Below are positions 4,353-29,127 of a DNA stretch of 30,149 nucleotides, piece by piece. Below the pieces are notes generated by a model. That model worked only from the letters and a program-made list of their open reading frames with translations, made no database searches and was not told the DNA's origin. Positions within the stretch are counted from its first letter, which is position 1; each line of letters starts with the position of its first letter. The translations under genes were made by a program, and so were the position numbers. Location of the stretch: positions 1 through 30,149 of the IMG/VR virus record IMGVR_UViG_3300032323_001988. One strand, 5' to 3'. Source of the stretch: a virus.

Positions 4353-5726
4353 ATGAACAAGAATTTTGACTACTTAGGGAACACATTCCAGATACAACTA
4401 TTAAATCAACTTATTGTAGATAAAGAATTTTCAACATCAATTATGGATGTTATTGAAAGCACTTACTTTGACAATAAGTACTTTAAAATCATCTTGCAGA
4501 TGACAAAGGAGTATCATGGGAAATATCAGTCTACCCCTAACTTTGATACTCTTGAGCAAATCGTTAAATCCGAAATCTCACAAGAATTGGTTGCTAAAAT
4601 CGTTCTTGATACCATCAAACAAATCAAAGACGCGCCATTTGAGGGTACCCAATTTGTTCAAGAAAAAGCATTGAAGTTTTGTAAACAACAAGAACTTCAA
4701 AAGGCTATGGATAAATCACAAAAGATTATTACTGAAGGTGATTTTGAATCTTATGATAAAGTTGAGGGTCTTATTCGTTTGGCGTTACAAGTTGGAGAAA
4801 GAGATTTGGGTACAACCGATATCTTCTCTAACCTTGAAACAGTATTAGACGAGGATTTTAGACACCCTATTCCAATCGGAATACCAGGAATTGACAGATT
4901 ACTTAAGGGTGGTCTTGCAAAGGGTGAAATAGGTGTTATATTGGCTCCTACGGGGGTTGGTAAAACTACCATCCTTACTAAAATTGCTAACACAGCCTTT
5001 AATCTTGGATATAACGTTCTTCAAATCTTTTTTGAGGACAACCCAAAGATTGTACAACGTAAACATTTCACCTTATGGACTGGTATTGAACCTGATAATT
5101 TGGTTCTACACAAAGAAACCGTAATGAGTAAAATAACAGAGATTAAAGAGACAATGAAGAACGAGTTAATTTTAAAGAAACTCCCTTCAGACTCTATGAC
5201 TATGAATCAAATCAAAAATCAAATCAGAAAAATGATTGCGGACGGAACAAAAATTGATTTAGTTCTTTTAGACTATATTGATTGTGTGGTTCCTGAGAGT
5301 TCAAGTAAAGATGAGTGGAAAGCCGAAGGTTCGGTTATGAGAGGATTTGAAGCGATGTGTCATGAGTTATCATTGGTAGGTTGGACTGCAACACAAGGTA
5401 ACAGGTCATCAATCTCTTCTGAGGTTGTAACTACTGACCAAATGGGTGGGTCAATTAAAAAAGCCCAAGTTGGACACGTTATCATTTCCGTGGCTAAAAC
5501 TTTACAACAAAAAGAAATGAATTTAGCAACCATTGCTATTACTAAGTCACGTATCGGTAAAGATGGGGTTGTATTTGAAAACTGTAAGTTCAACAATGAA
5601 TTACTTGAAATTGATACTGAAAGTTCGGTAACATTCTTAGGATTTGAAGAACAACAGGAAGAAAGAAAACGTGACCGTGTTAAAGAACTTTTGGAAAAAA
5701 GAAAACAAAGAGAACAACAATCGTAA
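4353..5726 (+). CDS. 41: DnaB-type replicative helicase (T4 gp41-like)
   Basis: A 457-aa hexameric-helicase-family protein expected to unwind DNA ahead of the replication fork. Residues 1 to about 150 form the helical N-terminal domain. The RecA-like motor follows: linker [15 protein letters not shown] (173-187), Walker A APTGVGKT (198-205), catalytic glutamate in FFEDN (E228), Walker B LVLLDYID with Asp307, sensor-like TQGNR (347-351), and a TKSRIGKDG basic motif typical of the arginine-finger region. The C-terminal tail is highly charged ([14 protein letters not shown]), probably an interaction tail. The start ATG lies 35 bases after the previous stop in an A/T-rich leader. No primase gene is seen in the window. 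Confidence 0.93.
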
Positions 5727-5745
5727 ACAAAATAGAAAAATAATT

Positions 5746-6693
5746 ATGGAAAAAATTTTAAAAGAAAACCCTGATAGGTTTGTTATCTTCCCAATAGAAC
5801 ATAACGACATATGGGAATATTACAAACAACATCAAGCAGCGTTTTGGACTGCAGAAGAAATTGATTTAACAAATGATATTCGTGACTGGGAAAACTTATC
5901 AGATAATGAAAAGTATTTCGTTAAGAATGTATTATCATTTTTTGCGGCTTCCGATGGTATTGTAAACGAGAATTTGGCAGAAAACTTCTTAAAAGAAGTA
6001 CAATATCCCGAAGCTAAATTCTTCTATGGGTTTCAACTTATGATGGAAAATATACATTCATTAATGTATTCACTTCTAATTGATACTTATGTTTCAAATC
6101 CTGAAGAAAAAGATGAATGTTTCCATGCAATTGATAGATTACCTGCAGTACAAAAGAAGGCGGCATGGGCTCTTGATTGGATTAAGAACGCATCTTTCCA
6201 AGAAAGATTAGTGGCGTTTGCCGCAGTTGAAGGTATCTTCTTCTCAGGTTCATTCTGTTCAATCTTTTGGTTGAAATCAAGAGGAATCATGCAAGGGTTG
6301 TGTAACGCAAATTCATTAATATTTAAAGATGAGAACTTACATTGTGATTTTGCAATTCACTTGTTGAATAATCACATAGAGGACAAACCAAGTGAAAAAA
6401 GAATTAGAGAAATCTTATTATCTGCATTGGAGATTGAGAAAGAATTTATCACAGAATCATTACCAGTTTCACTTATTGGTATGAATTCAAACTTAATGAA
6501 ACAATATCTTGAGTTTGTTGTTGATGGATTATTAATTAAGCTTGGTTGTAAAAAAGAATTTAATGTTGAACAACCATTTAAATTCATGGAACAAATCGCG
6601 GTTGAAACTAAAGGTAACTTCTTTGAATCAAGAACCGTTGAATACCAAAAAGCTAAATTAAACGAAACAATCACATTTGATGAAGATTTCTAA
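5746..6693 (+). CDS. nrdB: Class Ia ribonucleotide reductase small subunit (R2)
   Basis: A 315-aa R2 subunit that houses the di-iron tyrosyl radical cofactor used by NrdA to reduce ribonucleotides to deoxyribonucleotides. The iron ligands can be placed: D40 (TAEEID), E101 and H104 (ENIHS), E162 (VEGIFFSG), E196 and H199 (DENLHCD). The radical tyrosine is Y108 (LMYSLL). The wording [13 protein letters not shown] and the C-terminal tail TFDEDF, which docks to the large subunit, are of the eukaryotic/Bacteroidota R2 type rather than the E. coli type. The frame is open upstream to an ATG at 5644 inside the helicase gene, but alignment with R2 proteins and the A-rich leader favour the ATG at 5746, 19 bases after the helicase stop. 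It forms a pair with nrdA 12 bases downstream. Confidence 0.96.
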
Positions 6694-6705
6694 ACTATAA
6701 AAACT

Positions 6706-9126
6706 ATGATGTCATTAAGAATTAAAAAGAGAGATGGTGAGGATGCGTCCTTTAATCCACAAAAAATTTACAATAGAATTAAAAGAGCTGCGAAAGGGTT
6801 AAATGTTAATTCAGACGAGATTTTTATTAAAGTTATAACTTCGGTACCAACTGAAGGTTTAATTACAACAAAAGAGTTAGATAAACTTGTATATGAAATC
6901 GCTGCGGCATACACTGGTAGTCATCACGACTATTCAAGATTAGCATCGTCAGTTGCAATTTCTGCTTACCATAAAGAAACCAAAGATAGTTTTTCTGAAA
7001 CTATTATGGAGTTATATGAGACAGGTGTTGTTAATGAAAAGTTAATTGATATTATGAATAACTACGGTCATGAAAATATTGACGCGGTTATCAATCACGA
7101 AAATGACTATAACTTTGATTACTTTGCTTGGCGTTCATTACAAGAAATGTATTTGTTAAAAACACCTCAAGGTAAAGTAGTTGAAAGACCACAACACATG
7201 TATATGAGAGTTGCTCTATGGGTTACAAATACATTTGAAGAGGCGGTAGATTATTATAAATCACTATCTAATCAACTTATTTCACCTGCAACACCAATCA
7301 TGATTAATGCTGGTACTAAAGTACCACAGTTAGCTTCATGTGTATTACATTACAACAATTCAGATTCACGTAATGGTTTACTACAGACTTTAAATGATAT
7401 TTCAACATACTCTTCAGATGCCGCGGGTATTGGATTATCAATGTCTAATATTAGAAGTAAAGAAAGTAGAATTAACTCATCAGGTGGATTCGCTGGTGGT
7501 TTATTGAAGTACTTAAAGATTGTTAACGAATCATTAAGGTTCTTTAACCAACAAGGTAGAAGACCTGGTAGTGCAGCAATTTATCTTGAACCATGGCACA
7601 AAGATATCATGGACTTACTTGAAATTAAAAAGAACACAGGAGCTGAAGAGTTAAGAGCAAGAGATTTATTCACAGCTCTATGGATACCTGATAATTTTAT
7701 GAGAGCGGTTAAGGAAAGTGGTGATTGGTACCTATTCTGTCCTAATGATATTTTGAAAGCGGGTATTAAACCACTTCAAGAATGTTACGGTGATGAGTAC
7801 GAATCAAACTACAACAAAGCGGTTGAAATGGGTCTTGGTAAGAAAATCAAAGCTCAAGATGTTTGGACTAAAATTGTTGAATCACAAATTGAATCAGGTG
7901 TTCCTTATTTATGTTCTAAGGACAATGCAAATAAGAAAACTAACCACCAAAACATTGGGGTGATTAAACAATCAAACCTATGTAACGAGATTTACCAATA
8001 CACAGACGAAAAAACAACGGCAATCTGTACGTTATCTTCAATGGTATTAAAGAACTTCATTAAAGATGGTAAATTTGATTACAAATTGTTAATTGATGAA
8101 ACAAGAAAAGTTGTCAGAGCATTGAATAATGTCGTTGATAAAAATAGTTATTCAACCGAAAAAGGATTGAAAGGTGGTTTAGAACAAAGAGCAATTGCAA
8201 TCGGAACCCAAGGATTAGCTGACGTGTTCTATTTAATGGACTACATATTCACTTCTGAAGAAGCAAGAACATTAAATAAAAACATTTTTGAATCTATCTA
8301 CTTCGCGGCTATTACTGAAAGTATGGAGTTGTGTAAGACAGGTGGTAGAGAACCATACAAACATTTCAAAGGTTCACCAATGTCAAAAGGTATTTTCCAA
8401 TTTGATATGTGGGGATTAAATGAGTCTGACTTATTCTTAGATTGGGAATCTTTAAAAGAGGATGTTAAACAATATGGGGTATGTAACTCATTGTTTACTG
8501 CACAAATGCCTGTGGCGTCATCTGCTAAGATTACAGGGTCATTTGAAATGACTGAACCCGCACACTCAGCTTTATTCAATAGAAGAGTTGTTGGTGGTGA
8601 GATTATGATTGTTAACAAGTATTTGATTAACGATTTTGAAAAACTTGGTATTTGGAGTGAAGAGTTGAAAAACGAAATCATCATGAACGAAGGTTCAATC
8701 CAAAACATTAACTTTAATAATCACCTTGACGCTGAAGATAAAAACTATACTAAGAAAGTTAAAAGAACCGAACATTTGATTTCTAAGTACAAAACAATTT
8801 GGGAGATTTCACAAAGAGAGCTTATTGATATGGCGGCAGATAGAGCACCATTCATTGACCAATCACAATCAATGAACATCTATATGGCAAATCCAACATT
8901 ATCAAAGATTACTTCATCTCACTTCCATTCGTGGGAGAAAGGTTTAAAAACTTTATGTTATTATGTAAGAACTAAGGCAATTTCAACAGGAGCAAAACAC
9001 TTGGCAGTTGACGTTTCAAAAATACAACAACCAAGAGCTAAAGTTGAAATACCAAAAGTTGAAATAACAAATTTAACAAACAAACCTGAGGATAGTCCTT
9101 TTGAATGTTTTGGATGTAGTTCCTAA
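6706..9126 (+). CDS. nrdA: Class Ia ribonucleotide reductase large subunit (R1)
   Basis: An 806-aa catalytic subunit that reduces ribonucleoside diphosphates and supplies dNTPs for phage replication. An ATP-cone allosteric domain occupies about residues 4-92, so overall activity control by ATP/dATP is probably retained. Key catalytic residues are present: C212 (LASCVL) and C441 (AICTL), the redox pair; the N424-C426-E428 set (SNLCNE), with the thiyl radical cysteine; and the tyrosine pair Y752-Y753 (CYYVRT), which passes the radical. The C-terminal ECFGCSS carries the C801/C804 swivelling dithiol reduced by thioredoxin or glutaredoxin. It starts with two tandem ATGs (6706, 6709), 12 bases after nrdB, and is the last gene before a strong terminator. 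No frameshift, intron or intein interrupts it. Confidence 0.97.
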   Translation: MMSLRIKKRDGEDASFNPQKIYNRIKRAAKGLNVNSDEIFIKVITSVPTEGLITTKELDKLVYEIAAAYTGSHHDYSRLASSVAISAYHKETKDSFSETIMELYETGVVNEKLIDIMNNYGHENIDAVINHENDYNFDYFAWRSLQEMYLLKTPQGKVVERPQHMYMRVALWVTNTFEEAVDYYKSLSNQLISPATPIMINAGTKVPQLASCVLHYNNSDSRNGLLQTLNDISTYSSDAAGIGLSMSNIRSKESRINSSGGFAGGLLKYLKIVNESLRFFNQQGRRPGSAAIYLEPWHKDIMDLLEIKKNTGAEELRARDLFTALWIPDNFMRAVKESGDWYLFCPNDILKAGIKPLQECYGDEYESNYNKAVEMGLGKKIKAQDVWTKIVESQIESGVPYLCSKDNANKKTNHQNIGVIKQSNLCNEIYQYTDEKTTAICTLSSMVLKNFIKDGKFDYKLLIDETRKVVRALNNVVDKNSYSTEKGLKGGLEQRAIAIGTQGLADVFYLMDYIFTSEEARTLNKNIFESIYFAAITESMELCKTGGREPYKHFKGSPMSKGIFQFDMWGLNESDLFLDWESLKEDVKQYGVCNSLFTAQMPVASSAKITGSFEMTEPAHSALFNRRVVGGEIMIVNKYLINDFEKLGIWSEELKNEIIMNEGSIQNINFNNHLDAEDKNYTKKVKRTEHLISKYKTIWEISQRELIDMAADRAPFIDQSQSMNIYMANPTLSKITSSHFHSWEKGLKTLCYYVRTKAISTGAKHLAVDVSKIQQPRAKVEIPKVEITNLTNKPEDSPFECFGCSS

Positions 9127-9204: not shown

Positions 9205-9675
9205 ATGGCAAATGGTGTAACATATGGTTTAAATTTTCCCTTTAGAGATTCTAGACGAGGGGATTATTTAGAATTAACAGAGCTTCAATCACAGGAAATT
9301 AAGGCGGACTTAATTCATTTGTTATTGACTAGAAAAGGTTCAAGATATTTTTTACCAGAATTTGGTACTAGATTATATGAATTTTTGTTTGAACCATTTG
9401 ACGGATTAACATTTAATGCGATTGAATCTGACATTAGGGATGCTATTGAAAACTTTATGCCAAATCTATTGGTTAACAGTTTAAGTATTACACCAGCAGA
9501 CCCACAAGAAGAATTGGACATTGCGACAGGGCAAAACTCAGTTGGTACTAGTGAATCATCAATATATAGGTTCCCTGGTAAAGGAACATCAGAGTATACC
9601 GCAAAAATAAGAATAGATTATTCAACCAATGGTTCAACATTTGGTCAGAGTGATTTTGTTATTATTAATATTTAA
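9205..9675 (+). CDS. 25: Baseplate wedge protein, gp25/GPW family
   Basis: A 156-aa protein of the gp25-like (GPW) family, a core wedge component that links the tail tube/sheath start to the baseplate. Diagnostic features: the N-terminal GLNFPFRDS start, the helical segment LQSQEIKADLIHLLLTRKG, then the turn RYFLPEFGTRLYEFLFEP (47-64), which is the most conserved part of the family, and a second helix NAIESDIRDAIENFMP. The C-terminal part is a beta-rich extension containing a GTSESSIYRFPGKGT insert. It is slightly longer than T4 gp25 (132 aa). It opens the structural region after the terminator and is separated from the next wedge gene by only 5 bases, as expected for partners in the same complex. 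Confidence 0.9.
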   Translation: MANGVTYGLNFPFRDSRRGDYLELTELQSQEIKADLIHLLLTRKGSRYFLPEFGTRLYEFLFEPFDGLTFNAIESDIRDAIENFMPNLLVNSLSITPADPQEELDIATGQNSVGTSESSIYRFPGKGTSEYTAKIRIDYSTNGSTFGQSDFVIINI

Positions 9676-9680
9676 ATAAG

Positions 9681-11519
9681 ATGGCAAACAATAGAATATC
9701 ATATGCAAGTAGAGATTATCAGTCAATAAGAACTGAACTCCTAAATTACACAAAAACTTATTATCCTGATTTGATTCAGGATTTTAATGACGCATCAGTA
9801 TTCTCGGTATTCCTTGATTTGAACGCTGCGGTTGCGGACAATTTACACTATAATATAGATAGAAGTATCCAAGAAACCGTATTACAATACGCCCAACAAA
9901 GGTCTTCAATTTATAACATAGCAAGAACATATGGGTTAAAATTGCCAGGTCAAAGACCATCAGTATCGTTAGTTGATTTCTCAATTACAGTTCCCGCATT
10001 TGGAGATAAAGAAGATGAAAGATATCTTGGAATATTAGCTAGAGGGTCTCAAGTTGTTGGTGCTGGTATAGTATTTGAAAATGTTTATGACATTGACTTT
10101 GCTTCACCATATAATGCTCAAGGATTTCCAAATAGATTAAAGATTCCAAATTTTAATGCAAACAACGTATTAATTAATTACACCATAACAAAAAGAGAAC
10201 TTGTTGTTAATGGTATAACCAAGGTTTTCAAAAAAGTTATCGCAGCGAATGATGTTAAACCATTCTTTGAATTATTTCTACCTGAAAAGAATGTGTTAGG
10301 TATTACAAGTGTGTTATTAAAAAATGGTACCAACTATACAAATACTCCAACAACTGCAGAGTTCTTAGGTTTAGATAATAGATGGTATGAAGTAGATGCG
10401 TTGGCGGAAGATAGAGTGTTTGTTGAAGACCCTACAAAAGTATCTGACCAACCTGGTATTAAAGTTGGTAGGTATATCCAAACTCAAGATAGATTTATTA
10501 CTGAATATACACCTGAAGGATTTAAAAAGATGACATTTGGTGGTGGGACAAATACCGCTCAAGACCAATTAAATCAATTCACAACTTTAGGGGCGACATT
10601 AGATTTACAAAGATACTCAAATAACCTTTCATTAGGGGCGACATTAACTCCAAACTCAACTTTGTTTATTCAATATAGAGTTGGTGGTGGTTTGGCAACA
10701 AACTTAGGTACGAATGTTATTAATGCTTTAGGTACGGTTTCATTCTTTGTTAACGGACCTTCAGAGACAACAAACTCATCAGTAGTTAACTCGTTAAGAT
10801 GTGTTAATGTAACTGCGGCAGTTGGTGGTGCGGGTATTCCTTCATTAGAAGAAATTAGAAACTACGTATCATTTAACTTTGCAGCACAAAAAAGAGCGGT
10901 TACCGTTCAAGATTATGAATCGTTAATTAGAAATATGCCAGCTCAATTTGGAGCACCAGCGAAAGTATCTATTACCGAAAATGATAATAAGATATTAATT
11001 CAAATATTATCTTATGATACCTCAGGTAAATTAACTAATATTGTTTCAAATACTTTAAGACAGAACATTGCAACTTATTTATCAAACTATAGAATGATGA
11101 ATGATTACATTTCTATTTTCAGTGCGGAAGTAATTGATTTAAGTATGGATATTTCTATTGTTTTAGATTCTGCTCAAAATTCAGGTCAAGTAATTTCAAG
11201 TGTTGTTGATAAAATATCTGCATACCTTAATCCTCAAACAAGACAATTAGGTCAAAATGTTTATCTATCCGAAGTTAGAAGTTTAATTCAAAATACAAAT
11301 GGAGTACTAACAGTTGCAAATATTGACGTATTCAATGAAGTTGGAGGACAATATTCTTCAGCTGAAACATCTATGGAGTACGCAAATGCTGAGACGAAAT
11401 TAATTTTACCTGTTGATGATACAATTTTTGCCCAACCATCACAAGTATACCAAATTAGATACCCAAATAAGGACATCAGAGTTTCAGTTAAGAATTTCCA
11501 ATCTGTAACTTTTTCATAA
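9681..11519 (+). CDS. 6: Baseplate wedge protein, gp6 / baseplate J-like
   Basis: A 612-aa protein of the gp6/J-like baseplate family, which forms the wedge ring that holds the baseplate together and controls sheath contraction. The N-terminus has the typical pattern SYASRDYQSIRTELLNYTK, then the DFNDASVFSVFLDLNAAVAD helix (34-53) with the DN/Y positions common to T4 gp6. The middle is a beta-rich variable region (about 90-390). The C-terminal J-like core begins near residue 400 (KRAVTVQDYESLI), followed by a strand/helix repeat containing LSMDISIVLD and LIQNTNGVLTVANIDVF. Length is close to T4 gp6 (660 aa). It stands between gp25 and the giant protein that follows, in wedge-gene order. Confidence 0.88.
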   Translation: MANNRISYASRDYQSIRTELLNYTKTYYPDLIQDFNDASVFSVFLDLNAAVADNLHYNIDRSIQETVLQYAQQRSSIYNIARTYGLKLPGQRPSVSLVDFSITVPAFGDKEDERYLGILARGSQVVGAGIVFENVYDIDFASPYNAQGFPNRLKIPNFNANNVLINYTITKRELVVNGITKVFKKVIAANDVKPFFELFLPEKNVLGITSVLLKNGTNYTNTPTTAEFLGLDNRWYEVDALAEDRVFVEDPTKVSDQPGIKVGRYIQTQDRFITEYTPEGFKKMTFGGGTNTAQDQLNQFTTLGATLDLQRYSNNLSLGATLTPNSTLFIQYRVGGGLATNLGTNVINALGTVSFFVNGPSETTNSSVVNSLRCVNVTAAVGGAGIPSLEEIRNYVSFNFAAQKRAVTVQDYESLIRNMPAQFGAPAKVSITENDNKILIQILSYDTSGKLTNIVSNTLRQNIATYLSNYRMMNDYISIFSAEVIDLSMDISIVLDSAQNSGQVISSVVDKISAYLNPQTRQLGQNVYLSEVRSLIQNTNGVLTVANIDVFNEVGGQYSSAETSMEYANAETKLILPVDDTIFAQPSQVYQIRYPNKDIRVSVKNFQSVTFS

Positions 11520-11596: not shown

Positions 11597-11610
11597 ATTA
11601 AAGTAACTTG

Positions 11611-14600
11611 ATGGGTCAATCATATAGAATAAGAACTGAGTTGGGTATTAGTAAATCTATTAATGTCCAGTTAGACCAAGAGTTTGAATTTTTAGAGATT
11701 TTATCGCTAAAACTTCAACAAGAGGATGTTTATGCAAAAAGTTGTGCGAATTACGGTGTTGTTGTTGGTAGAGTAACTGCAAATAATGGGTTTGGTGTTC
11801 CTAACGCTAGGGTATCTGTCTTCATACCAATTGAATCTGTTGATGAATCTAATCCGATAATTTCAAGTATATATCCATACAAATCACCAAATGATAAAAA
11901 TGAAGATGGTTATAGATATAATCTACTTCCTTACGAAAAATCATACTCAACACATGCCGCCACAGGTACATTACCAACAAGATTAGATAGTTTAACAGGT
12001 AGTACCGCAGTTGAAATCTACGACAAGTATTATAAATTTACATCAAAGACAAATGAAAGTGGGGACTACATGATAATGGGAGTACCTCAAGGACAACAAT
12101 CTATTGTTATGGATGTTGATTTGTCTGATATTGGTGAATTTTCTTTAACACCTCAAGATTTAATTAGGATGGGTCTTGCGACCGATGCTCAAGTTGCGGG
12201 TAATAGATTTAGAACCTCAGCTGATTTGAATTCATTACCACAAATAATTAATGTGGTTAAATCTATAGAAGTTTCACCACTTTGGGGTGACCCTGAATTG
12301 TGTACTATTGCAATTAACAGACTTGATTTTGATTTAAGAGATGACGCCAATGTTGATATTCAACCAACTTCAACATTTATGGGTTCTATATATAGTACTC
12401 CTGATAAAATGAGAATTAGACCCAATTCTAGACCTAAAGATAATTTTGGTAATATGTGTGGGTTAGTTGCTGGTCCAGGGCAAATATTAGCAATAAGACA
12501 AACTATTGACCAAGATGAAGATGGAAATCCTGTATTGGAACAATATCAGTTAGAACAGGCGGGTAATATTATTGACGGTAGTGGTGTTTGGTTAACCGAA
12601 TTACCAATGAATTTAGATTATTTTATTACAAATGAATTTGGTGAAAAAGTAATTTCATATGACCCAACTGTTGGTATTCCAACTAAAGCCAAGTATAGAT
12701 TTAAGATTAAATGGCAACAACCTCCAACATTAAGTGAACAAACAAGAAGACCATATTTTTTGGTTCCAAATATTAAAGAGTATGGTTGGTCAAATCCTGA
12801 TACTGACCCATTAACTTTAACAGGGAATCCTAATAAAAAATTAGCTAGTTCGTATTATTTTGGATTAGCGTGGAGTGGTTATACAAATGGATTTAGTAAA
12901 ACTTCTGGTAATGAATATTATGATAGACTTAATGAAGTTATTGATTGTGAAGACACTTTTTATGAATTTAATTTTAATAAAGTTTACACAGTTTCACAAT
13001 TAATTGATGAATTTAAAAAGGGTGGAAGGTCTAGATTTGTGGGAATCAAAGAAATTGATAGTGATGACTGTGAGTCAACTATAAATAAATTTCCAGTTAA
13101 TGAAGGATTTAGAAATTTTGATTTATTATATTTCATTTTTTCATTTTTATTTCAAATAATCCAATTAATAGGTATACCAATTATTTTTGTTGCTCGTATA
13201 ATTTTATTTATATATGCCGTAATCGTTAAGTTTTTATGTTGGTTGGCAAGAAATATATATATTAGTATTGCATTTCTTAGTTGGCATCCATTTAGAGATT
13301 TAACCAATGCTTTAGGTATTGATTGTGATAATGGTTTGAATACACAAATGAAATTAACCATGTTAACTTATCCTGATTGTGATGCTTGTGAGTGTGACGT
13401 AGATGTAACACAACCAAAAGTACAACAACTTAACCCGCCAACTCAAATGGTGAATCCAACAGGTATGTTAACGTATTTTTCATACCCTGTAAATTATAAT
13501 ACTGAATTTCAATATCTTTATGAGAATGCTTCATTTGCGTCAAATGAAATTGATATCTACGTTCAAATTAGTTCTGAATCACTTTCTGGTTTGAACAATT
13601 ACGCTTTAATTAATGACCCAACAAGATATAAATTACCTATTTCTAATATACTTAATTTACCAGGCGGTGGTGATGTTGCCGTGTCATCAAAAGACCTACC
13701 TTTAGGTGAGAGGGTAAATTTATTTAATCAACGAAGTAATTACTTTTCAGGTTTAAATAGGATTAAAGTTACGTTTGCTTCAAGTTCAAACACAGGTAAA
13801 TTTCACTACGATAATACAATAACAGTATTGGCAAATACAAATGGACAATCTTATAGCCCAGGTGATTTGTTAACATTTGTTAATCCAAATTCTAGTGATG
13901 ATAAAAATTATTTATTTAGTGCGTCTACAGCCGATATAGATATTTTTGGTATTAGTGGTACATCTTATCACTCAGGAGCAGCAACAATAAGTGTTAATTA
14001 TTGTGACCCATCATCTCCAACGACTAGTGCTACTCCAGTAAGTTATAGTTTACCATCTGGGTCAACAACTACTAATTATATATACCCATCAGACGTTGAG
14101 TATTATCAAGTAGTTACTGCAATCACTGTTTCTCAAGCAATCTCATTATGGAATACGGGGTTAACACAAACATTTCCAAATATTTTAAATTCACCGACTA
14201 AGTTTAATACTTGGCGTCAATCAGGACTATTTTCAGCTACTGTGATAAGACAAATTTCTGGTACAACAGTAAATCCATTACAATTCTATGATAACTACAC
14301 TGATGAGGTTATATTGATATTACAAAGAGGTGTTGACCCATATTCACCAAAATACACGAACAAATATGGTATTGGTAAAATATTGGGACTTCCTTCTGAA
14401 GATGATTTAACTATTGAAGTGGAAACAAGGATGAATATACCAATTCAACCGTTACCTATAAGTAGCTCAATCAGTGTTCAATCTTTTGCAAATCAAAACG
14501 AAATATATTATCCTTCATACTTCTTTAAACCAGGTATTGTTGGAAGTACAACACCTGGATTGGAATATTCATCGTATACCACAAATAATCTTGGGTATTA

Positions 14601-16662
14601 TGGTTCATTAGATGCTAGTAATTACTCTAGCGCTTATATGGCAACTATTTCAAAAAAGGTAATAACTAAAACTTCAAATGGATTTTACTCAGCAAGTATT
14701 GGTAGTGCAACATACGATTTAAGTGAGGATGTTTCAGGTATGGGTATGATGTCAATAACAAATTATACGTCAAACCCTTGTAGTATATGGAATTATAATA
14801 ATTGGAGTACATTTGCTAATACAATATCATATAGAGATTGTACGGATACTCTAATTACATTAAATGTTAATGGTGGAGAAACAGGTAGTATATGTGTTCT
14901 TAATGGGACATCTCCAAGTGCATCGGCGCCAACAACTATTTTTCTTACTAATACACCTACACCATGCTCAATTCCCGCTTTTTTTGCAGGTTCTTGGCCT
15001 ACAGCGGTTATGCCATCAAGATATTACATTAGTAATGCGTTTGGAACCGCATTTACAATGTCAATTACCGATTCAGTTAAAAATGTTATGAGAACAGATA
15101 GACTACCAACATCAGATGTACTTGATGGAGGTTCTTGGTCGGTTAATCCTAGTATTTTACAACAAAATTTACAATTTCAAATTTACAAAATAAGTGATGC
15201 GGGACCAACATTAACCCAAGGGTTTGGTAGTGGAGCATCTCAAGTAAGACCTGATATTGATGATTTACCCTATGCTGGTGAAGTATTAACAAGTTTTAGT
15301 TGTCCTGGTATGGTACCATTGGATTGTTATGAAGGTTTTGGTAGTAATTTTAGAGTTAAATCTCCTTGCAACGACCCACAGGGTGCTGGATATAATTATA
15401 TAAAAAATGGATGTTATATTTTACTTAATGAACCTGATAAACTATTCAAAGGTATAAAAAATGATATTGGTATCATATGGCCAGAATGGGGGTTTAGATT
15501 TAGATTTATGTATGGACTTTGTAGAGGAGTCTTGTCTCAAACATTCACTAATAATTGGATTAATGGTTCTTTATTTATGTTCCCAATTCAAACTGACGTT
15601 TTTTATGACAGACAAAATCAACCAATAGACCCTAAAATACCTCAAGAGATAGTTTATTTTGATAAACCAACAACAAATTTTTATTTCAGAAGTAGTCCAT
15701 ATAGTGATAACCAAAATAAATTTGTTGGAAGAAGAGGGGGGGATACTGCGGTTAACGAGTTAAATCTAATGTTTCCGACAACAATTATTAATTTGGGATA
15801 TAAGGATTCTTTTTATTCAGAAATAACTTTTGACCCATCAACAAAGGCGTATATTATACCTAGTTTAAATCCTACAAGTTATGGAGATACTTCTGATTTG
15901 GTAAATCTTTTTGTAGTATCAAGAATGGTTGACTCAGGGTTCTTGAAACAAATAATAAGTTTTGTAAATGATGCCATTGGTGTTTTGTTTTCAAGACCTG
16001 ATGATAGAGGATACCCGCTTCAAATATTTGACCCAAAAGGTAGGGTTGATGGTGACTTTGTTCAATTATGCTCAATTAATAGTGAAATAGGTAATATTAA
16101 TTTTTCGCCTGAATATTATGCAACAACACCTACAAATTCACCAACTAATGTTTTAGGTACTCCAAATAATCCAGTAATGGCTGTTTGGTTTTCATCTACA
16201 ACGGAAGATTTACAAACAAAGGATTATTTAACACCTGGTAGAATTAATTTTAGAACACCAAATAATAGTGCGAACTATCCATATCCTTATGGTATAAAAT
16301 CACAAGTAGCCCCTCATTATCAATGGGAGTTAAGAAATAATACAAATAATTTAATTTTTGGTAGTCAATTAAATAATTGGGCTACAGGACCAAATGATAT
16401 TGTTCAAAATAGAAGATATCAATCACTTGACAGAATTTCATTAATTACACCAAATTATTTTATACCACCAACTGTGACAGCAAATGATTTAAATGCTAGA
16501 GGTTATATTTTTAGTAATGATATAAGTGGTAATTATGTGTCAACTATTACAACTAGTCCTAATAAATTTATTGTTGGAGCACCTTTCCATTTTTATTTTG
16601 GAATAATTAAAGGTGAAACGGCTTTAGACCTATTTAAAACAAAATACTCAGTAATTGAATAA
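11611..16662 (+). CDS. Giant baseplate/tail protein with embedded membrane-like segment
   Basis: A 1683-aa virion protein, the largest product in the window. Its place directly after gp25 and gp6 genes suggests a T4 gp7-like baseplate role, but I see no clear gp7 signature. The N-terminus (about 1-45) is followed by an Ig-like, carboxypeptidase-regulatory-type fold split by a loop: GVVVGRVTANNGFGVPNARV at 49-68 and the TNESGDYMIMGVPQGQ part near 147-162. Residues about 503-556 are strikingly hydrophobic (LLYFIFSFLF, IPIIFVARIILFIYAVIVKF), enough for two or three membrane helices. A cysteine cluster follows (C572, C590, C593, C595). The remaining 1000 residues are beta-rich, with many N, T, S, Y and P. 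The frame is open a codon upstream to TTG 11608, but ATG 11611 is preferred. It overlaps the next gene by one base (TAATG). Confidence 0.85.
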   Translation: MGQSYRIRTELGISKSINVQLDQEFEFLEILSLKLQQEDVYAKSCANYGVVVGRVTANNGFGVPNARVSVFIPIESVDESNPIISSIYPYKSPNDKNEDGYRYNLLPYEKSYSTHAATGTLPTRLDSLTGSTAVEIYDKYYKFTSKTNESGDYMIMGVPQGQQSIVMDVDLSDIGEFSLTPQDLIRMGLATDAQVAGNRFRTSADLNSLPQIINVVKSIEVSPLWGDPELCTIAINRLDFDLRDDANVDIQPTSTFMGSIYSTPDKMRIRPNSRPKDNFGNMCGLVAGPGQILAIRQTIDQDEDGNPVLEQYQLEQAGNIIDGSGVWLTELPMNLDYFITNEFGEKVISYDPTVGIPTKAKYRFKIKWQQPPTLSEQTRRPYFLVPNIKEYGWSNPDTDPLTLTGNPNKKLASSYYFGLAWSGYTNGFSKTSGNEYYDRLNEVIDCEDTFYEFNFNKVYTVSQLIDEFKKGGRSRFVGIKEIDSDDCESTINKFPVNEGFRNFDLLYFIFSFLFQIIQLIGIPIIFVARIILFIYAVIVKFLCWLARNIYISIAFLSWHPFRDLTNALGIDCDNGLNTQMKLTMLTYPDCDACECDVDVTQPKVQQLNPPTQMVNPTGMLTYFSYPVNYNTEFQYLYENASFASNEIDIYVQISSESLSGLNNYALINDPTRYKLPISNILNLPGGGDVAVSSKDLPLGERVNLFNQRSNYFSGLNRIKVTFASSSNTGKFHYDNTITVLANTNGQSYSPGDLLTFVNPNSSDDKNYLFSASTADIDIFGISGTSYHSGAATISVNYCDPSSPTTSATPVSYSLPSGSTTTNYIYPSDVEYYQVVTAITVSQAISLWNTGLTQTFPNILNSPTKFNTWRQSGLFSATVIRQISGTTVNPLQFYDNYTDEVILILQRGVDPYSPKYTNKYGIGKILGLPSEDDLTIEVETRMNIPIQPLPISSSISVQSFANQNEIYYPSYFFKPGIVGSTTPGLEYSSYTTNNLGYYGSLDASNYSSAYMATISKKVITKTSNGFYSASIGSATYDLSEDVSGMGMMSITNYTSNPCSIWNYNNWSTFANTISYRDCTDTLITLNVNGGETGSICVLNGTSPSASAPTTIFLTNTPTPCSIPAFFAGSWPTAVMPSRYYISNAFGTAFTMSITDSVKNVMRTDRLPTSDVLDGGSWSVNPSILQQNLQFQIYKISDAGPTLTQGFGSGASQVRPDIDDLPYAGEVLTSFSCPGMVPLDCYEGFGSNFRVKSPCNDPQGAGYNYIKNGCYILLNEPDKLFKGIKNDIGIIWPEWGFRFRFMYGLCRGVLSQTFTNNWINGSLFMFPIQTDVFYDRQNQPIDPKIPQEIVYFDKPTTNFYFRSSPYSDNQNKFVGRRGGDTAVNELNLMFPTTIINLGYKDSFYSEITFDPSTKAYIIPSLNPTSYGDTSDLVNLFVVSRMVDSGFLKQIISFVNDAIGVLFSRPDDRGYPLQIFDPKGRVDGDFVQLCSINSEIGNINFSPEYYATTPTNSPTNVLGTPNNPVMAVWFSSTTEDLQTKDYLTPGRINFRTPNNSANYPYPYGIKSQVAPHYQWELRNNTNNLIFGSQLNNWATGPNDIVQNRRYQSLDRISLITPNYFIPPTVTANDLNARGYIFSNDISGNYVSTITTSPNKFIVGAPFHFYFGIIKGETALDLFKTKYSVIE

Positions 16663-20316: not shown

Positions 20317-21225
20317 ATGGCAATCGGCTCATACGGCACAATTAGACCTTCAGACGTATCACCTGAAGATGTACAAATTATAATGAACTATACACCATCA
20401 AGGGATGTTACGGATAATTTTATCCTTACAGAGCTTGATGCACAAACATTATTAAAACCTTATTTTAATAACACAGAAACTGGAGGAAACGCTGGTGTTG
20501 AAGTTTTAGGTGGTTTATATAACTTAACCTTACCCGCAGAACAATTTAATGCTCTTGGGATTTATACTTTATATTTAAGACCAGCACAAATTAGAACTAA
20601 AATTACAGATTGTGGTGTACTAAGTGCGTTGCCAAATGTTAAAGGTATTATAATTGATATTACAAATGTACCTGTACAATTTCAAAACAAATTTGTTCCT
20701 CAAGGACTTGTTGGTTTTAGAATTGAATATTTAAACGCTGACGGTTCAAAAATACCTAATTTCTTTAGAGTTGTAACATCATCATTCTTCTGTGAACCAG
20801 TTGTTACAAATGAGATTAATACAACACAAAAATCTATTAGATATAGATATGTTGACGGTAATTCAAATTTAATATTTTTGACATTATCGCCATCATCTTC
20901 ACCAACAAATAAGCCAAATGCAACACCATTTATTGGGCAACCAAACCAAAATATTATAATTTCAAACACATTTTTTAATCCTGTGACATTGGAGATTGAT
21001 ATGGTTGAGTACGATATTTCGTCTCTTGCAATTGCTCTTTACGGTAATCAAACTAAATCTATTGATGATGGTATCTACACAATTTACGACTCTGAAAATA
21101 ATATTTACAGACAGTACAACTTGTATGAAATTAGAGACCAATTTAATGCATTACTTTATGAGGTTAGACAAAGTAGAGGAAATAATATTGATTTTAGTAA
21201 AAACTTTACAACGATAACAACTTAA
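20317..21225 (+). CDS. Virion structural protein, unknown (302 aa)
   Basis: A 302-aa protein I cannot place in a named family. The N-terminus (MAIGSYGTIRPSDVSPEDV) leads into alternating strands such as LGIYTLYLRPAQIRT and VKGIIIDITNVPVQF, a Ser/Pro/Asn-rich linker near SPSSSPTNKPNA (about 192-203), and a charged, helical C-terminus (YNLYEIRDQFNALLYEVRQ). The layout of beta body plus C-terminal helix would suit a tail accessory or fibre-connector protein. It is preceded by the AAACTATTTATAA element and an A-rich leader, and its stop overlaps the next start as TAATG, so it is probably co-translated with the gpI-like gene downstream. Confidence 0.82.
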   Translation: MAIGSYGTIRPSDVSPEDVQIIMNYTPSRDVTDNFILTELDAQTLLKPYFNNTETGGNAGVEVLGGLYNLTLPAEQFNALGIYTLYLRPAQIRTKITDCGVLSALPNVKGIIIDITNVPVQFQNKFVPQGLVGFRIEYLNADGSKIPNFFRVVTSSFFCEPVVTNEINTTQKSIRYRYVDGNSNLIFLTLSPSSSPTNKPNATPFIGQPNQNIIISNTFFNPVTLEIDMVEYDISSLAIALYGNQTKSIDDGIYTIYDSENNIYRQYNLYEIRDQFNALLYEVRQSRGNNIDFSKNFTTITT

Positions 21226-24209
21226 TGGCGGTAGAAATAAAAAATACTAAATACTTTTATCCCCCAAGACCAGGTAGTGGTGCGGGTACCTTCTCAGACA
21301 ACATTGTAGGATTACAAACTGTTGAGGGTGGAGGACTTACGCAAGGTAACTTTGAGTTTACTACTGGTGTAACAGAAAAGGTTAACAGAACCTTTAATGT
21401 GGGCGCGTTCTCTGAACCAATGTCATTGGACATGATGGGTATTGATAGTTTGGAAGAGAGTAGAAGAATTATTGCAACTCAGTTTAGGGTTTATCCAAAT
21501 TACGATATTTCTCAAGTTCTTAACTTTTCAATGTATGGTTCACTATCTAAAAGATTTAGTGTTTCTATCACAAGAATTATTAATTATTTTCCTGCTTCGT
21601 TAGACATAATGTTTAATAATGATGATTTTACGACAGGTAATACCGCTTATGATATTGTTTACGATTCTCAAAATGACGACACTTATTTCAAAGTAAATGT
21701 TGATAGGATTAACAATCCTTTTGATATTGATTATTCAGTTAGTGCTGCAACCAATCTATCAATTAGAGAGATTGAGGTGTCACCTTATAGAAATTTATAT
21801 AACACTTATTTAGATTATTGTATTAGTATAAATGACGATATCTTTAAAATACTTTCGTTTGCGCCGTCAGAAACATTGTCATCAGGATATATTGAATTTT
21901 ATGTTTCAGGTGCTCCATTTGGTAAAAGTGCAACAACAATCAATGACGAGTTTCAAATTAGACCAAACGACTTTATTGTTGATAAAGTTTTTCAAGAATC
22001 ATTTGATGAAATTGAAAAGTTTTTAGTTAATAGATTAGTTAGACCCGAATACACTGCGGTATTCCAAGTTCCTCAACAAAATGAATTTGGTCAAACATAT
22101 ACAGAATATAAACAAGTGACTTGGCCAAAACAGGGTACATGGAATTTAGATATTCGTTCATTTTTATTTGACAATTATTTGGAAGAAATCCAAGATATTG
22201 CGGTCAATTTGGATTCATTTAAAACAAACTTAATTTCAAGATTTTTAATTACCGATTCATTAAAAGAGTTTGACACTTTAGGTCAAAAAGTTGAAAAGAT
22301 ATTCCAAATTTATGGTAGAAGTTTTGACCAAATAAAACAATTTATTGATGGGTTGGCTTACATGAATTCGGTTAACTATAATCCTTCAAATGATATTCCA
22401 TCTGAGTTATTGGTTAATTTATCAAGAACTTTGGGATGGTCATCAAACTTCTCGCCAATCACAAACGAAGATTTTTTAAGTTCTGTTTTTGGTAATACCT
22501 CAACTCCAACTTATCCTGGATATGCCAGAGCTTTGACACCAACCGAATTAAACTATGCTTATTATAGAAACTTAATTCTTAATGCGTCATACCTTTTCAA
22601 ATCAAAGGGAACAAGAAGGTCAATTGAATTCTTATTAAGATTAATTGGGGCTCCTGATTCATTAATTGAATACAATGAGCACATTTATTTGGCTGACCAA
22701 AAAATTAATCTTGACCAATTCTACACACAATGGGCGGAAATCTCAGGGGGTACTTATGTTAATGAAGTACCAGCTTATTTGCCAGGAGAAACATATAAAG
22801 CTAAAGGTCGATTATATACTGCATTTACTTCAACCGAAACTTATCAAGATGTTAACATTAGATTAGATGATTATCCTATGGATTTTCAAGGTTATCCAAA
22901 GGCACCTGTAAATACGGAAACATTCTTTTTCCAAATTGGTGCAGGTTGGTATGAAGTTACTCCGCAACATAGAAGTCCTGACCAAGTTCAACTTACAGGT
23001 AATGTTTTTACAGGTCAAAACTATAATATACAAACTCAGTTAACTCCTTTTACATATGGACAAACTTATCTTAACAGATATAGAGATTTTCCATACATGA
23101 ATGAAGGATTTAAACTACAAAAAGTTGTAGATAATAATAAATCTTGGTTATCCGATGATAATAGAATTAGAATTTCAACTCAAGGAGATTACAACGCTTA
23201 TTATTATGTTGATAATGAGAAATTAGTTTTAAATGTTAAGAATGTTGACATATTTTTAAATCCTGCTCAAGGTATTGTTTATGATGTTTGGAACCAATCG
23301 GTTCAATATGATTACCCAATTCCCGAATCAGGTCTAACAGTTGGTTATCCTGTTCCAGGTGGTGTTGATTGGACTTATGTTAATCCTGAACCAAAGAAAA
23401 AAACATTCTTTGAATTTTCTCAAACATTTTGGGAGAATATGATTAACACAAGAAATAGATTATATATTACTGATGGTAAAACGGGTGGATATCCTACTTT
23501 ACAATCAATCTTTTGGAAATACATTGAGTCAGAACAAACTGTTGGAATCCCAAACAACAAATACACGTATCAAAAGTTAATTGATTATGTAAATGGTATT
23601 GGTCCTTATTGGACTAAGTTGGTTGAACAAATGGTTCCTGCAACAACTATTTGGAATGGAGGGGTTAGATTAGAAAACTCAATCTTTAACAAACAAAAAT
23701 TTGTATATAGAAGACAAAGAGGTTGTCAATTTGTACCTGTTCCTGTTGACCCATGTTTTATTATATCAGGAATATTTGATTATACATGTGAAACTGAATA
23801 TGCTGACTTTAATATTTATCCATGGCTTAATGGGGATGTTACTGTGTCAAACTTTAGTAGTATATTAGTTAATAGAGTTAATAATATGTTGGCTCAAAGC
23901 GGATTAACACTTAATGAGTGTTATGAAAATTCAATATTAAGTGATTGGTATGTTGATTTAACAATTAACGGAGAACAAATTATTAAAGAATCTTTCTATA
24001 CAGGGTATGGAATGTCTGATGTACCAACCAACACACAATGGAGAAATGCTTTGATTAATTATTTACCTCAATTATATAATTATGGCTACACATATTACTT
24101 AAATGGTAATACATTAACAATTACAAATTTATCATGTTTAACACAGGATATCGTTAATGCGGTTTCACTAGACGTGGGAATAAACATTAATATTAACTGT
24201 ACACAATAA
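21225..24209 (+). CDS. Large tail protein with P2 gpI-like segment
   Basis: A 994-aa tail/baseplate protein. Residues about 440-490 hold a segment resembling the P2 gpI tail-protein family: a helical run ending in LFKSKGTRRSIEFLLRLIG followed by APDSLIEYNEHIYL. In P2 this family helps attach tail fibres to the baseplate, usually as a protein of under 200 aa, so here it would be embedded in a much larger chain. A second conserved-looking block near 790-835 reads WTKLVEQMVPATTIWNGG, then ENSIFNKQKFVYRRQRGC. The rest is beta-rich with many Y, N and F. The C-terminal 160 residues contain six cysteines. TAATG overlaps link it to genes on both sides. The family link is moderate; a fibre-attachment role immediately upstream of fibre genes is a sensible inference. 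Confidence 0.83.
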   Translation: MAVEIKNTKYFYPPRPGSGAGTFSDNIVGLQTVEGGGLTQGNFEFTTGVTEKVNRTFNVGAFSEPMSLDMMGIDSLEESRRIIATQFRVYPNYDISQVLNFSMYGSLSKRFSVSITRIINYFPASLDIMFNNDDFTTGNTAYDIVYDSQNDDTYFKVNVDRINNPFDIDYSVSAATNLSIREIEVSPYRNLYNTYLDYCISINDDIFKILSFAPSETLSSGYIEFYVSGAPFGKSATTINDEFQIRPNDFIVDKVFQESFDEIEKFLVNRLVRPEYTAVFQVPQQNEFGQTYTEYKQVTWPKQGTWNLDIRSFLFDNYLEEIQDIAVNLDSFKTNLISRFLITDSLKEFDTLGQKVEKIFQIYGRSFDQIKQFIDGLAYMNSVNYNPSNDIPSELLVNLSRTLGWSSNFSPITNEDFLSSVFGNTSTPTYPGYARALTPTELNYAYYRNLILNASYLFKSKGTRRSIEFLLRLIGAPDSLIEYNEHIYLADQKINLDQFYTQWAEISGGTYVNEVPAYLPGETYKAKGRLYTAFTSTETYQDVNIRLDDYPMDFQGYPKAPVNTETFFFQIGAGWYEVTPQHRSPDQVQLTGNVFTGQNYNIQTQLTPFTYGQTYLNRYRDFPYMNEGFKLQKVVDNNKSWLSDDNRIRISTQGDYNAYYYVDNEKLVLNVKNVDIFLNPAQGIVYDVWNQSVQYDYPIPESGLTVGYPVPGGVDWTYVNPEPKKKTFFEFSQTFWENMINTRNRLYITDGKTGGYPTLQSIFWKYIESEQTVGIPNNKYTYQKLIDYVNGIGPYWTKLVEQMVPATTIWNGGVRLENSIFNKQKFVYRRQRGCQFVPVPVDPCFIISGIFDYTCETEYADFNIYPWLNGDVTVSNFSSILVNRVNNMLAQSGLTLNECYENSILSDWYVDLTINGEQIIKESFYTGYGMSDVPTNTQWRNALINYLPQLYNYGYTYYLNGNTLTITNLSCLTQDIVNAVSLDVGINININCTQ

Positions 24210-27200
24210 TGGCTGCATTTCAATATACGATAGCATTAACTGGAGATTGTTCAAATACTGATTCTGGTGAAATACAACTTTTAATTTTTGGTGGTACTCC
24301 ACCATACACTATTGAATGGGTTAGTCCAAGTTTAGGTACTGATGTTGTAACAACGAATCCATCAGTGAGAACTTCGTTAAGTGCTGACACATATAGTGTT
24401 AGAGTTAATGATAGTACATTACCGCTGAACCAAGAATTCTATATCAATATACCTGTGTCTTCAGGTATTTGTGCTAATATTGTTTCTGTCCAAAGTACTA
24501 CATGTTCTTTTGATAATGGTTCGGTGACAGGAACATCAAGTTCTAATTATTCTTCTACTAATTTTTATCTGTATTTTTCAGATGACACTTATGTGAATTC
24601 TGCAACTACAAACACCGCAGAGGTTGATTTCAATGGGTTGTCAGCGGGAACATACTACATGATTGCAGAAGATTTAGGAGGATGTTCAGGACAAAGCGCC
24701 AATTTTATTGTTGAAGATAGTGAACCGTTTACTTATGGTTTATATGTTGTGCCAAATTCAAGTTGTGGTGGTACGCCTATTGGTAAAATTATTGTAACAG
24801 GTCAAACAGGTGTTTCACCTTATACATATCAATGGAGTAATGGGGAAACAACAAGTAGTATTACAGGATTAACATCTGGAACATATTCAGTTCAGGTTAT
24901 TGACAGTTTAGGATGTTCATTATCTAAAGAAGAATTTCTTTCTGATGTACCTGTTCTTGGTTTTGGTTCTTTTACTGCAATTCAACCAACATGCTTTTCT
25001 GCTGATGGTGTTTTAACTTTACAAATTACTGGAGGCACTGCACCATATTATTATTCTGCTTCAACAGGGGACGTTAATATTCAATACGGCACTTCTTGGT
25101 CAATATCAGGTTTATCCGCTGGTGACTACAATATATTAGTGACCGATTCTGCGTTTTGTAATATCCTTGTTGGTACCTCATTGTTGACACCTCTTGGTAT
25201 TGCATCTGTTACTATATCAAGTCAAGGTTCAACATGCTCAAGTACTGACGGTTCAATCACTGTTTCAGTTGCGGGAGGAGTTTCACCATATAAGTATACT
25301 TTAATATATCCTGGTGGGAATACCCTTAATATTGACAATACTCAAACTAATCAAGTATTTAATAATTTATCAACAGGAACTTATAGTGTTGTCGTCCAAG
25401 ACTCTTCAGGATGTTCATACATGGACGAAATAACTTTATTTGCAACTGATACATATACAATATCTACTGAAGTAACAGGGACAACCTGTAATCAAGATAA
25501 TGGTGTTGTTTTAATTACAAAAACAGAAGGAGGGCAGTCACCTTTTGATTACTCTTTAGACGGTATTCAAAATGTGATAGATACAACATTATCTGCGGTA
25601 ACATTTACAAATGTTCCTTCAGGTCAACATACTGTCACGGTCGTTGATGCAACAGGATGTACACAAACAAAACAAGTTTATGTTGCGGAAAGTAACCCAT
25701 TAGAGTTCAGTTTATATAATACTTCTTGTGGAGAAGGTTCTGACGGTTCTTTAACTGCATTAATTTCTACTGGAACTCCACCATACACTTTTAATTGGTC
25801 TAATAATGTTCCCAATAATCCACAACAAATTCAAGTTACGGGATTAACGGCAGGAACATATAGTTTAACTGTTGTTGATAGTATTGGTTGTGTTTTACAA
25901 AGAGAAACAATTATTGCTTGTGATGCTCTTTATGTATCTTACCAAACGTATGTTATGGGTGGAGAACAATTTAGTATTCAATCACAAACTAAATACGGGT
26001 TACTTCAAATGTTAAATGAAGGGTTTAATGATTTAACTAATGATAAAGTTGATTGTGATTTAATTTCTGCCGTATTTGGTATTAAAGTGTCTGTTAACCC
26101 TATGGGATTAACTACAAGCCAAAACTTTTTTACGGGTACAACATTAGTAAGTGCTCCAAGTGATAATCTTTATTATGATGCGGTTAAAGATTTATTGTTG
26201 ACAGTTCCTGGTATTGGTGGGGTTACTTTTGATGTATTAAGTAATCAAATCACTGTTACTACTGACCCTGGTAATACAACATTAAATAATCAAGAAATTG
26301 TTGTTGAATTAACAATTGTTTATGACATTATGTGTTTATCTTGTGACCTACCAACAAATACACCAACAACAACACCTACACCAACGGTAACTCCAACGGT
26401 AACTCCAACGGTAACAATGACTAGTTCACCTACAAGTACGGTAACTCCAACTCAAACTAAAACGCCAACTCCAACAGTAACTCCAACAAATCCACAAAAT
26501 ACACCTACACCAACTAATACAACTACACCAACTAATACAACCACACCAACTGTTACTAAAACTCCTACTCCAACTAGAACTCCGACTAGAACTCCGACTC
26601 CAACACCAACACCTTGTAATAATAACCAAATTAAAAGAACTTTAACAGGTAATGTTATTTACCCTGTTAGACCTAGTGCTATGGTATATAATCCTAATAC
26701 AAATTTAATATACATGTTAAATTACAACGTTAGTGGTATTGATAGTAATATTGCTTGTATAAGTCCAAACCAACCATCAACGTTAATAAATTATTCATGT
26801 GAGATTATGAGCCCAAGTGGTTTTCCTGTTAACTCTCCGCAAAGTGCTTTCCTTGGAATGAATACCACATCAAATAAGATGTATGCTTGGGGTCAGGCAG
26901 TTGCTGGTGTTGGGACCATGCTTATTCTTAATTTTAATACCAACATAACATCTGCAATAAGTGGTGTTGTTAGTTTTAATGGTTACCAATATGGTATGGT
27001 TTATAATCCTACCTTAAATAAAATGTATGCTTGTTCGACTTCAGGTATTACTACAGGAGAATTAACAATCATTGATGGTGTTACAAATTCTGCAACTGTT
27101 GTTAATGGATTACCAATTAAGTCAAACTATCAACCAGCATTTAACTCAACAAACAATACAATTTATTTGGCGGGAACATCTAACACAATTAAAGTTTTTG

Positions 27201-28005: not shown

Positions 28006-29127
28006 ATGACTACATACACTATAACTGTTACCAATAATGCTGTTGGTTGTGATAATGAAATTGAACAGCAATTAACGGTAGAAGGTTGCTCAACATATAT
28101 TGTCAGATTAACTTCTAATTCAAATGCGTTAGGACCATTTAATGTCTACGTTAATGGGTTACTTTATTATTCTAATGTAACAAGGGTAGAAATGTTGCTT
28201 GGTGTTGAGGTAATTCTTGAATGTGGTACTCCTACTCCAACACCAACTCCAAGTATTACACCAACAAATCAAACTCCAACACCAACTCCAACAAATACTT
28301 CAACACCGACTAATACTCCAACAAATACTTCAACGCCAACTCAAACACCTACGCCAGGAGCGTCTCAAACACCTACGCCAACAAATACTTCAACACCGAC
28401 TAATACTCCAACAAATACTTCAACACCGACTAATACTCCAACAAATACTTCAACACCGACTAATACTCCAACAAATACTTCAACACCGACTAATACTCCA
28501 ACACCTACAAGTGCTGGATTTTCGGCGTACATATTCGCGGAACCTCAAGACTTTAATGATGGATTAGTGATTGAGGATTATATGACTGTTCAAAACTCGG
28601 CGACATGGGGAGGATATCAATTCTATGGTATACCAAGTAGTACAAATTACTCATCAAATCTTGATTTATATGCTCATTTCTCAGGATGGACTAGTGGTCT
28701 TGGTAATTATATAACCGCACCTCAATCGTTTGCAGGACCAATTAGACAAGCTTCTGGTGCGGGCACCGATGCTTACGGATGTTCCCAAAATCAATATACT
28801 TTTGGAACAATTCCAATCTTAACTTCTCAAGTTGATGTTAATATACAATATTTTTATTCTATTTGGATACCATTGGCTGGTGTTGGTGGTAGTATGACTA
28901 ATATGACTGTGGATATTGGTTCGGGTGCACCATGTACCTCAAATATATTAAATGACGGTATTCCTGATAGTATTGCGGGAACTAATGTAAATGTAACTTC
29001 AGGTGGTGCAATACCTGCAGGTAATTATAGAGTGCTTTGGTTAGGTTCTTTTGCGGTACAACCATCGGCAGTTCCTCCACCACCATTATCTATTCCATTA
29101 TACTTTAAAGGAGACACTAAAACTTAA
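28006..29127 (+). CDS. Tail fibre-like protein with hypervariable TP linker
   Basis: A 373-aa protein with three parts. Residues 1-73 form a small beta domain. Its first 28 residues ([19 protein letters not shown]) resemble the last half of an SprB repeat, and its second half carries [13 protein letters not shown], then [12 protein letters not shown]. Residues 74-168 are a Thr-Pro/Asn-Thr linker built on the 10-residue unit [10 protein letters not shown]. Residues 169-373 are a Gly/Ser/Tyr-rich C-terminal domain with two to three cysteines that starts [17 protein letters not shown] do not recognise it, but it is a likely receptor-binding head. No signal peptide. The plan (adhesin domain, TP stalk, head) is the same as in the 1133-aa protein upstream, suggesting an accessory or alternative fibre. 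Confidence 0.85.
28291..28500 (+). repeat. Near-perfect 30-base tandem repeat in a fibre gene
   Basis: The 30-base unit (first 20 bases ACAAATACTTCAACACCGAC) occurs in five perfect copies: one at 28291-28320 and four head-to-tail at 28381-28500. Two diverged units lie between (28321-28380). Each copy encodes [10 protein letters not shown] in frame, so gain or loss of copies keeps the reading frame and only changes stalk length. Confidence 0.93.

Follow-up and report, generated by a model that had tools for sequence, protein, structure and literature searches.

A giant baseplate-locus protein of uncultivated lake phages carries a conserved hydrophobic block with exchangeable cassettes, a candidate membrane-inserting module

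The passage of DNA across the inner membrane by contractile phages is, to our knowledge, largely unresolved, and attention has so far been directed to the tape measure protein and the hub. The window analyzed here is a 30,149-nucleotide stretch of viral DNA. Within its baseplate gene cluster, a giant gene encodes a protein with a long internal hydrophobic segment. The question raised by this locus is whether the segment enters a membrane during infection or has another use in or outside the particle.

The giant gene is part of a cluster on the plus strand (Table 1). Its reading frame (11608-16662) begins with a TTG at 11608 and runs through 1684 codons. Residues are numbered from the ATG at 11611, and the length of 1683 residues given in an earlier note on this DNA matches the count from that codon. 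The gene on the 3' side encodes a 563-aa protein whose family was not recognized. The order of gp6, giant, and 563-type gene is kept among relatives, with the upstream neighbor retained in 119 of 120 homologous loci and the downstream neighbor in 83 of 83. This gene position is what places the giant, by inference, in the virion and at the tail base. The name "baseplate wedge protein", used in the earlier note, likewise comes from position. The giant matched nothing in PHROGs and showed no sequence link to T4 gp7, gp8, gp9, gp10, gp11, or gp53; an hhalign comparison of the giant family with one T4 gp7 sequence gave a probability of 0.1%, and distant homology can escape such a single-sequence comparison.

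Several other genes of the window can be placed. A DnaB-like helicase gene and the genes for the small and large subunits of ribonucleotide reductase occupy 4353-9126; they share the strand of the baseplate cluster and lie directly 5' of it. The ORFs at 24209-27610 and 28006-29127 each match phrog_15511, the former also with a Hoc-like match, and are probably related tail-fibre-type proteins. Long (1265-1404 aa) baseplate-region proteins of Flavobacterium phage immuto, Microcystis phage Mel-JY01, and LR756508 are related to the 994-aa ORF at 21225-24209 and not to the giant. Because the immuto-type long protein aligns with this ORF, it was rejected as the counterpart of the giant. These three records hold the nearest gp6 sequences, and a whole-record profile search of them for a giant homologue was silent.

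Table 1. Features of the giant gene and its upstream neighbors in the window
Feature	Position	Strand	Basis or remark
gp25-like baseplate wedge gene	9205..9675	+	phrog_261 E 4e-19, phrog_43 E 5e-10
gp6 / Baseplate_J-like gene	9681..11519	+	PF04865 E 6e-7; phrog_6 E 1e-22
Giant protein gene	11611..16662	+	1683 aa from ATG; between gp6-like gene and 563-aa gene
N-terminal soluble beta-rich region (predicted), residues 45-465	11743..13005	+	AF2, VIA, sub-cut-off PF13620
Invariant C487, just 5' of hydrophobic block	13069..13071	+	57/57 and 96/96
Hydrophobic helix (predicted), residues 505-548	13123..13254	+	One 44-residue helix in both AF2 models; hydropathy
Residue 529, polar site mid-helix	13195..13197	+	Arg in window
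Exchangeable distal part of block, residues 529-569	13195..13317	+	Local divergence, cassette comparison, AF2
CxxCxC (C590, C593, C595) inside LxMxTYPxCxxCxC	13378..13395	+	57/57; 120/120 distinct proteins by pattern
Middle beta-rich region (predicted), residues 620-1119	13468..14967	+	AF2 model 1; missing from short class
Second hot spot, residues 1055-1130	14773..15000	+	Local divergence between close pairs

The segment at 13120-13280 corresponds to about residues 503-557 of the giant and is strongly hydrophobic. Membrane character was judged with hydropathy scales. The Kyte-Doolittle (KD) maxima of the giant are 2.62 as a 19-residue mean and 2.22 as a 40-residue mean, and the hydropathy maximum of all other ORFs of the window is 1.77 or less. 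Of 10,000 shuffles of the giant protein, 85 reached the 19-residue maximum, one reached the 60-residue maximum, and none attained the 40-residue maximum, for which the best shuffled value was 2.07. The unusual feature is therefore the length of the stretch. On the Wimley-White octanol scale, the sums stay above zero from residue 494 to about 563, with a peak of +15.6. Eisenberg hydrophobicity of the segment is 0.66-0.85 and its moment 0.22-0.42, so that at least 19 residues combine membrane-level hydrophobicity with a low amphipathic moment. Judged by its sequence, this low moment is membrane-like rather than surface-amphipathic. The hydrophobic segment that the earlier note had described at these positions is borne out by both hydropathy and shuffling.

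Homologues were collected from IMG/VR. The first scan confirmed 487 relatives and 80 of them were retained; later scans with diverged members and an N-terminal motif enlarged the set. Conserved N-terminal motifs guided the retrieval, so members without them were missed, and IMG/VR contigs overlap between samples. The segment is found at the same position in all 120 distinct proteins of the first three scans. It is preceded by an NKFPVN-like motif and followed by a YPxCxxCxC-like motif, with 56-132 residues between the two, and the 19-residue hydropathy maximum across these proteins is 2.12-3.0. Diverged relatives with 33-39% identity, obtained by a motif scan that was not similarity-ranked, have equally or more hydrophobic blocks. 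The N-terminal domain occurs in 175 complete ORFs, and the block is present in 155 of these and absent from 20. Every complete long ORF (1530 aa or more) contains it; five of the 155 block-bearing ORFs are below this length and may be split or truncated. One locus has the giant divided into two ORFs of 807 and 1042 aa, through either gene fission or assembly error.

Most long members possess two to four membrane-length stretches in a block of 71-171 aa between the flanking cysteines, and this variation in size makes a tightly packed soluble core hardly likely. The dN/dS ratio is 0.10 for the proximal helix, 0.22 for the distal helix, and 0.36 for a second hot spot farther along the protein. 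The value for the proximal helix indicates purifying selection.

The fold was predicted with AlphaFold2 (AF2) for residues 1-1179 (model 1, 57 sequences) and 1-625 (model 2, 106 sequences). The N-terminal part of model 1 is poor, and about residues 620-1120 are beta-rich with high confidence. Model 2 has a mean pLDDT of 82. Its residues 45-465 are confidently soluble and beta-rich (pLDDT mostly > 90), and the linkers at 465-503 and 589-625 are of low confidence. Within the block, the model places a helix at 505-548 (pLDDT about 89-93), followed by a small hairpin and another, short helix. The long helix may instead be two shorter helices with a kink at G521-P523. Both models are monomeric and without lipid; what they show is a block outside the N-terminal core, not a membrane location or an unburied state in an oligomer. 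On these models, the block is predicted to be an autonomous helix or helix set on flexible linkers, set between the N-terminal domain and the beta-rich region. A segment buried as the core of a soluble fold would, by the earlier note, have spoken against a membrane role; in the AF2 monomer it comes out as a separate module, not as the core of the N-terminal domain.

Residues from about 45 to 250 of the N-terminal domain are modeled as a sandwich that resembles transthyretin/carboxypeptidase-regulatory-like domains and is split by an insertion. PF13620 (CarboxypepD_reg) gave sub-cut-off matches to the corresponding region of 8 of 10 relatives, the best with 24.6 bits against the curated 32.3. 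Membership in PF13620 was rejected because the best score is below the curated cut-off, and only the description "transthyretin-like fold" was kept. VIA gave Z values of up to 7.3, not a level that stands out alone; the match with carboxypeptidase D covers 83 residues at Z 7.2 and rmsd 2.6. The VIA tables are filled by the N-terminal sandwich and say nothing on the fold of the remainder. The transthyretin-like sandwich is a common fold and tells no function. Pore-forming-toxin rows from a Foldseek search of the PDB were discarded, since the 1179-residue model gave noise with low TM-scores, and similar rows in a second search were discarded likewise. A profile search of solved structures gave no PDB match.

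Conserved residues lie within and around the block. Position 529 is basic in 88 of 96 long homologues (His in 84, Arg in 4). Four invariant cysteines, C487, C590, C593, and C595, bracket the block. The long members of alignment A3 were chosen with a CxxCxC filter, and the invariance of the last three is therefore taken from the 57-member and 120-protein sets. The earlier note had located the cysteines of this region correctly and had counted C572 into the cluster with C590, C593, and C595; C572 occurs in 46% of the 57-member alignment and was dropped as not conserved. The quartet may clasp both ends of the block, by way of disulfides or a metal site. One homologue of the giant, a 1046-aa ORF, contains 39 Cys.

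The distal part of the block is composed of the second half of the helix, a beta-hairpin at 551-558, and a helix at 560-568. Between the window and a close relative, L003, residues of about 528-577 have 37-72% nucleotide identity and are still equally hydrophobic, and the rest of the gene is mostly 90-100% identical. Two hot spots of local divergence are seen among 30 close pairs, at residues 529-569 and 1059-1129. In a tree of the N-terminal domain, the block type (with or without internal cysteines) changes at least 20 times in the long clade and hydrophobicity is never lost; 20 is a rough figure because the tree is only partly resolved. From these comparisons, the distal half has been swapped repeatedly for unrelated, equally hydrophobic cassettes. 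At the second hot spot, four homologues have an insert of about 45 residues that is hydrophobic (KD 2.73) and rich in Ala and Gly.

The 20 orthologues without the segment form a short class. All are 673-787 aa and occupy the same gene slot. Residues 1 to about 370 are common to the short and long classes (hhalign E about 1e-67), and the last 21 or so residues are also shared, which is only suggestive. The gene order is gp25, gp6, short protein, and 563-type gene, followed farther on by the 369, 302, and 994-type genes; L400 and L402 are rearranged exceptions. No protein of the short-class baseplate clusters reaches membrane-like hydrophobicity. A profile for the middle region as a separate gene was silent in six short-class contigs, including those of 320,934 and 298,833 bp, with a positive control. 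Not every phage with this slot thus requires the segment there. Absence from most homologues, which the earlier note would have held against a membrane role, is not what was found among the long homologues, all of which keep the segment, but the short class does lack it. In the same tree, the long and short forms are separated by one change (SH-aLRT 94), which fits a long form gained or lost once, and the side of the root is unsure due to long branches at L401 and L402. The slot of the 280-aa ORF of the window holds a gene of 708-996 aa in five short-class loci, and length has therefore shifted between neighboring genes. ORFs of 1070 and 991 aa that adjoin the short-class gene in L400 and L402 have 53 and 41 Cys.

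By a narrow margin over all else, the segment is best read as a real membrane-inserting module that belongs to a tail-base protein and acts in infection. This reading draws on the length and strength of the hydrophobicity, the low moment, retention in all long homologues, purifying selection, separation in the AF2 model, His or Arg at residue 529, size variation, and cassette exchange. A further support is the precedent of Cis13, where a contractile tail base has a membrane helix (PMC8894136). Several copies per tail base would be kept shielded in the virion. Upon attachment or contraction, the copies would insert into the host membrane, where they could anchor the tail and line or stabilize the genome-entry opening. 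Exchange of cassettes would follow differences between hosts in membrane partners or exclusion systems. Two points count against a membrane module: the short class does without the segment, and T4 gp7, a tail-base protein, also has a strongly hydrophobic stretch.

T4 gp7 forms a heterotrimeric bundle with two copies of gp6. Like the giant, it lies directly 3' of gp6, is large, and has one membrane-like stretch (residues 886-904, KD 2.07); its GenBank record carries the note "predicted integral membrane domain". The earlier note's premise that wedge proteins are normally soluble therefore needs care. The gp7 stretch is about 19 aa near the C-terminus, whereas that of the giant is at least 44 residues, mid-protein, and bracketed by cysteines. 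The main rival explanation, which we regard as improbable and still ahead of the others, is a buried helical bundle in which the helices of several copies pack together or around a hub in the baseplate and never meet lipid. The gp7 stretch is in keeping with such a bundle, the monomeric AF2 models leave the helix unpaired, and the polar residue 529 could be an inter-subunit contact. A bundle of this kind is harder to reconcile with a block that has at least 44 residues, extends to as many as 171 from one flanking cysteine to the other, and holds a varying number of hydrophobic stretches, with a distal half replaced by unrelated hydrophobic sequence, and with a low hydrophobic moment, i.e., no polar face.

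Next in order, and less probable again, is an assembly anchor, in which the segment would tether the protein, and through it the assembling baseplate or tail, to the inner membrane of the cell that makes the phage and would play no part in entry. Contractile injection systems of Anabaena sit in the thylakoid membrane through a tail-fibre helix before firing, and the membrane helix at the tail base, in Cis13, was shown to matter for anchoring (PMC8894136). In Cis13, a small tail-fibre-like trimer, the helix is at the C-terminus, unlike the internal block of the giant (residues 503-557 of 1683). Moreover, a phage leaves with its particle, which would require that the segment be pulled out or shielded once more. 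A distal half that is exchanged so often is more in keeping with a changing partner than with a housekeeping anchor, and the short class presumably assembles without the segment.

A signal for another fate, e.g., early lysis, superinfection exclusion, or a peptide cleaved and released in the host, is very unlikely: exchangeable hydrophobic cassettes do resemble small phage membrane proteins in general, but the block is mid-chain in 1683 aa between conserved structural regions, is not a separate gene in the inspected loci, and, searched alone, matched no holin or other known membrane family. A frameshift, misassembly, or chance is refuted to near certainty by 120 distinct homologues in independent assemblies, by the selection on the proximal helix, and by the shuffles at 40 residues.

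Tape measure proteins of lambda and its relatives are virion proteins that take part in moving the genome across the inner membrane of the host, where they are thought to act, and their variable region follows the host partner (PMC13190303). The giant resembles them in a virion membrane role, here predicted, and in its variable region. It differs in being predicted beta-rich outside the block, in adjoining gp6, and in having no homology to them by the searches made. Membership was rejected because a mostly alpha-helical chain would be expected of a tape measure protein.

The relatives of the giant belong to a large group of uncultivated lake phages. A tblastn search of INPHARED with the long and short forms found no relative among cultured phage records, and GTDB genomes contained no relative of the giant. 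The sole deposited relative found is A0A8S5LA66, an uncharacterized protein of Myoviridae sp. ctPuP5 in BFVD (Foldseek E 1.4e-45, 34% identity over 607 columns, 625-residue model). Chen et al. 2022 describe bS21-encoding freshwater Bacteroidetes phages as large myoviruses of up to 331 kb (PMC9723584). The window is a 30-kb fragment, and the bS21 data come from the contigs of relatives, where bS21 is present in three of seven. In one of these, the gene adjoins that of the prohead protease but lies on the opposite strand, as described in that paper. The group to which the giant belongs appears to overlap with the bS21-encoding phages. NrdA is closest to Bacteroidota (45% identity), and the hosts of these large T4-like phages are probably Bacteroidota.

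A more far-reaching version of the membrane-module reading is held only tentatively and is on balance unlikely. It proposes a clade-wide, dedicated, exchangeable module of the tail base, not of the tape measure, whose multiple copies would, after contraction, enter the host membrane and form or line an entry port, and whose cassettes would match host membrane partners or evade exclusion. Orthologues without the block in the same slot are a natural control group, and the block, the His/Arg site, and the four cysteines are handles for such work. If true, a conserved, cassette-exchanged membrane module at the tail base would be a direct handle on the passage of DNA across the inner membrane.
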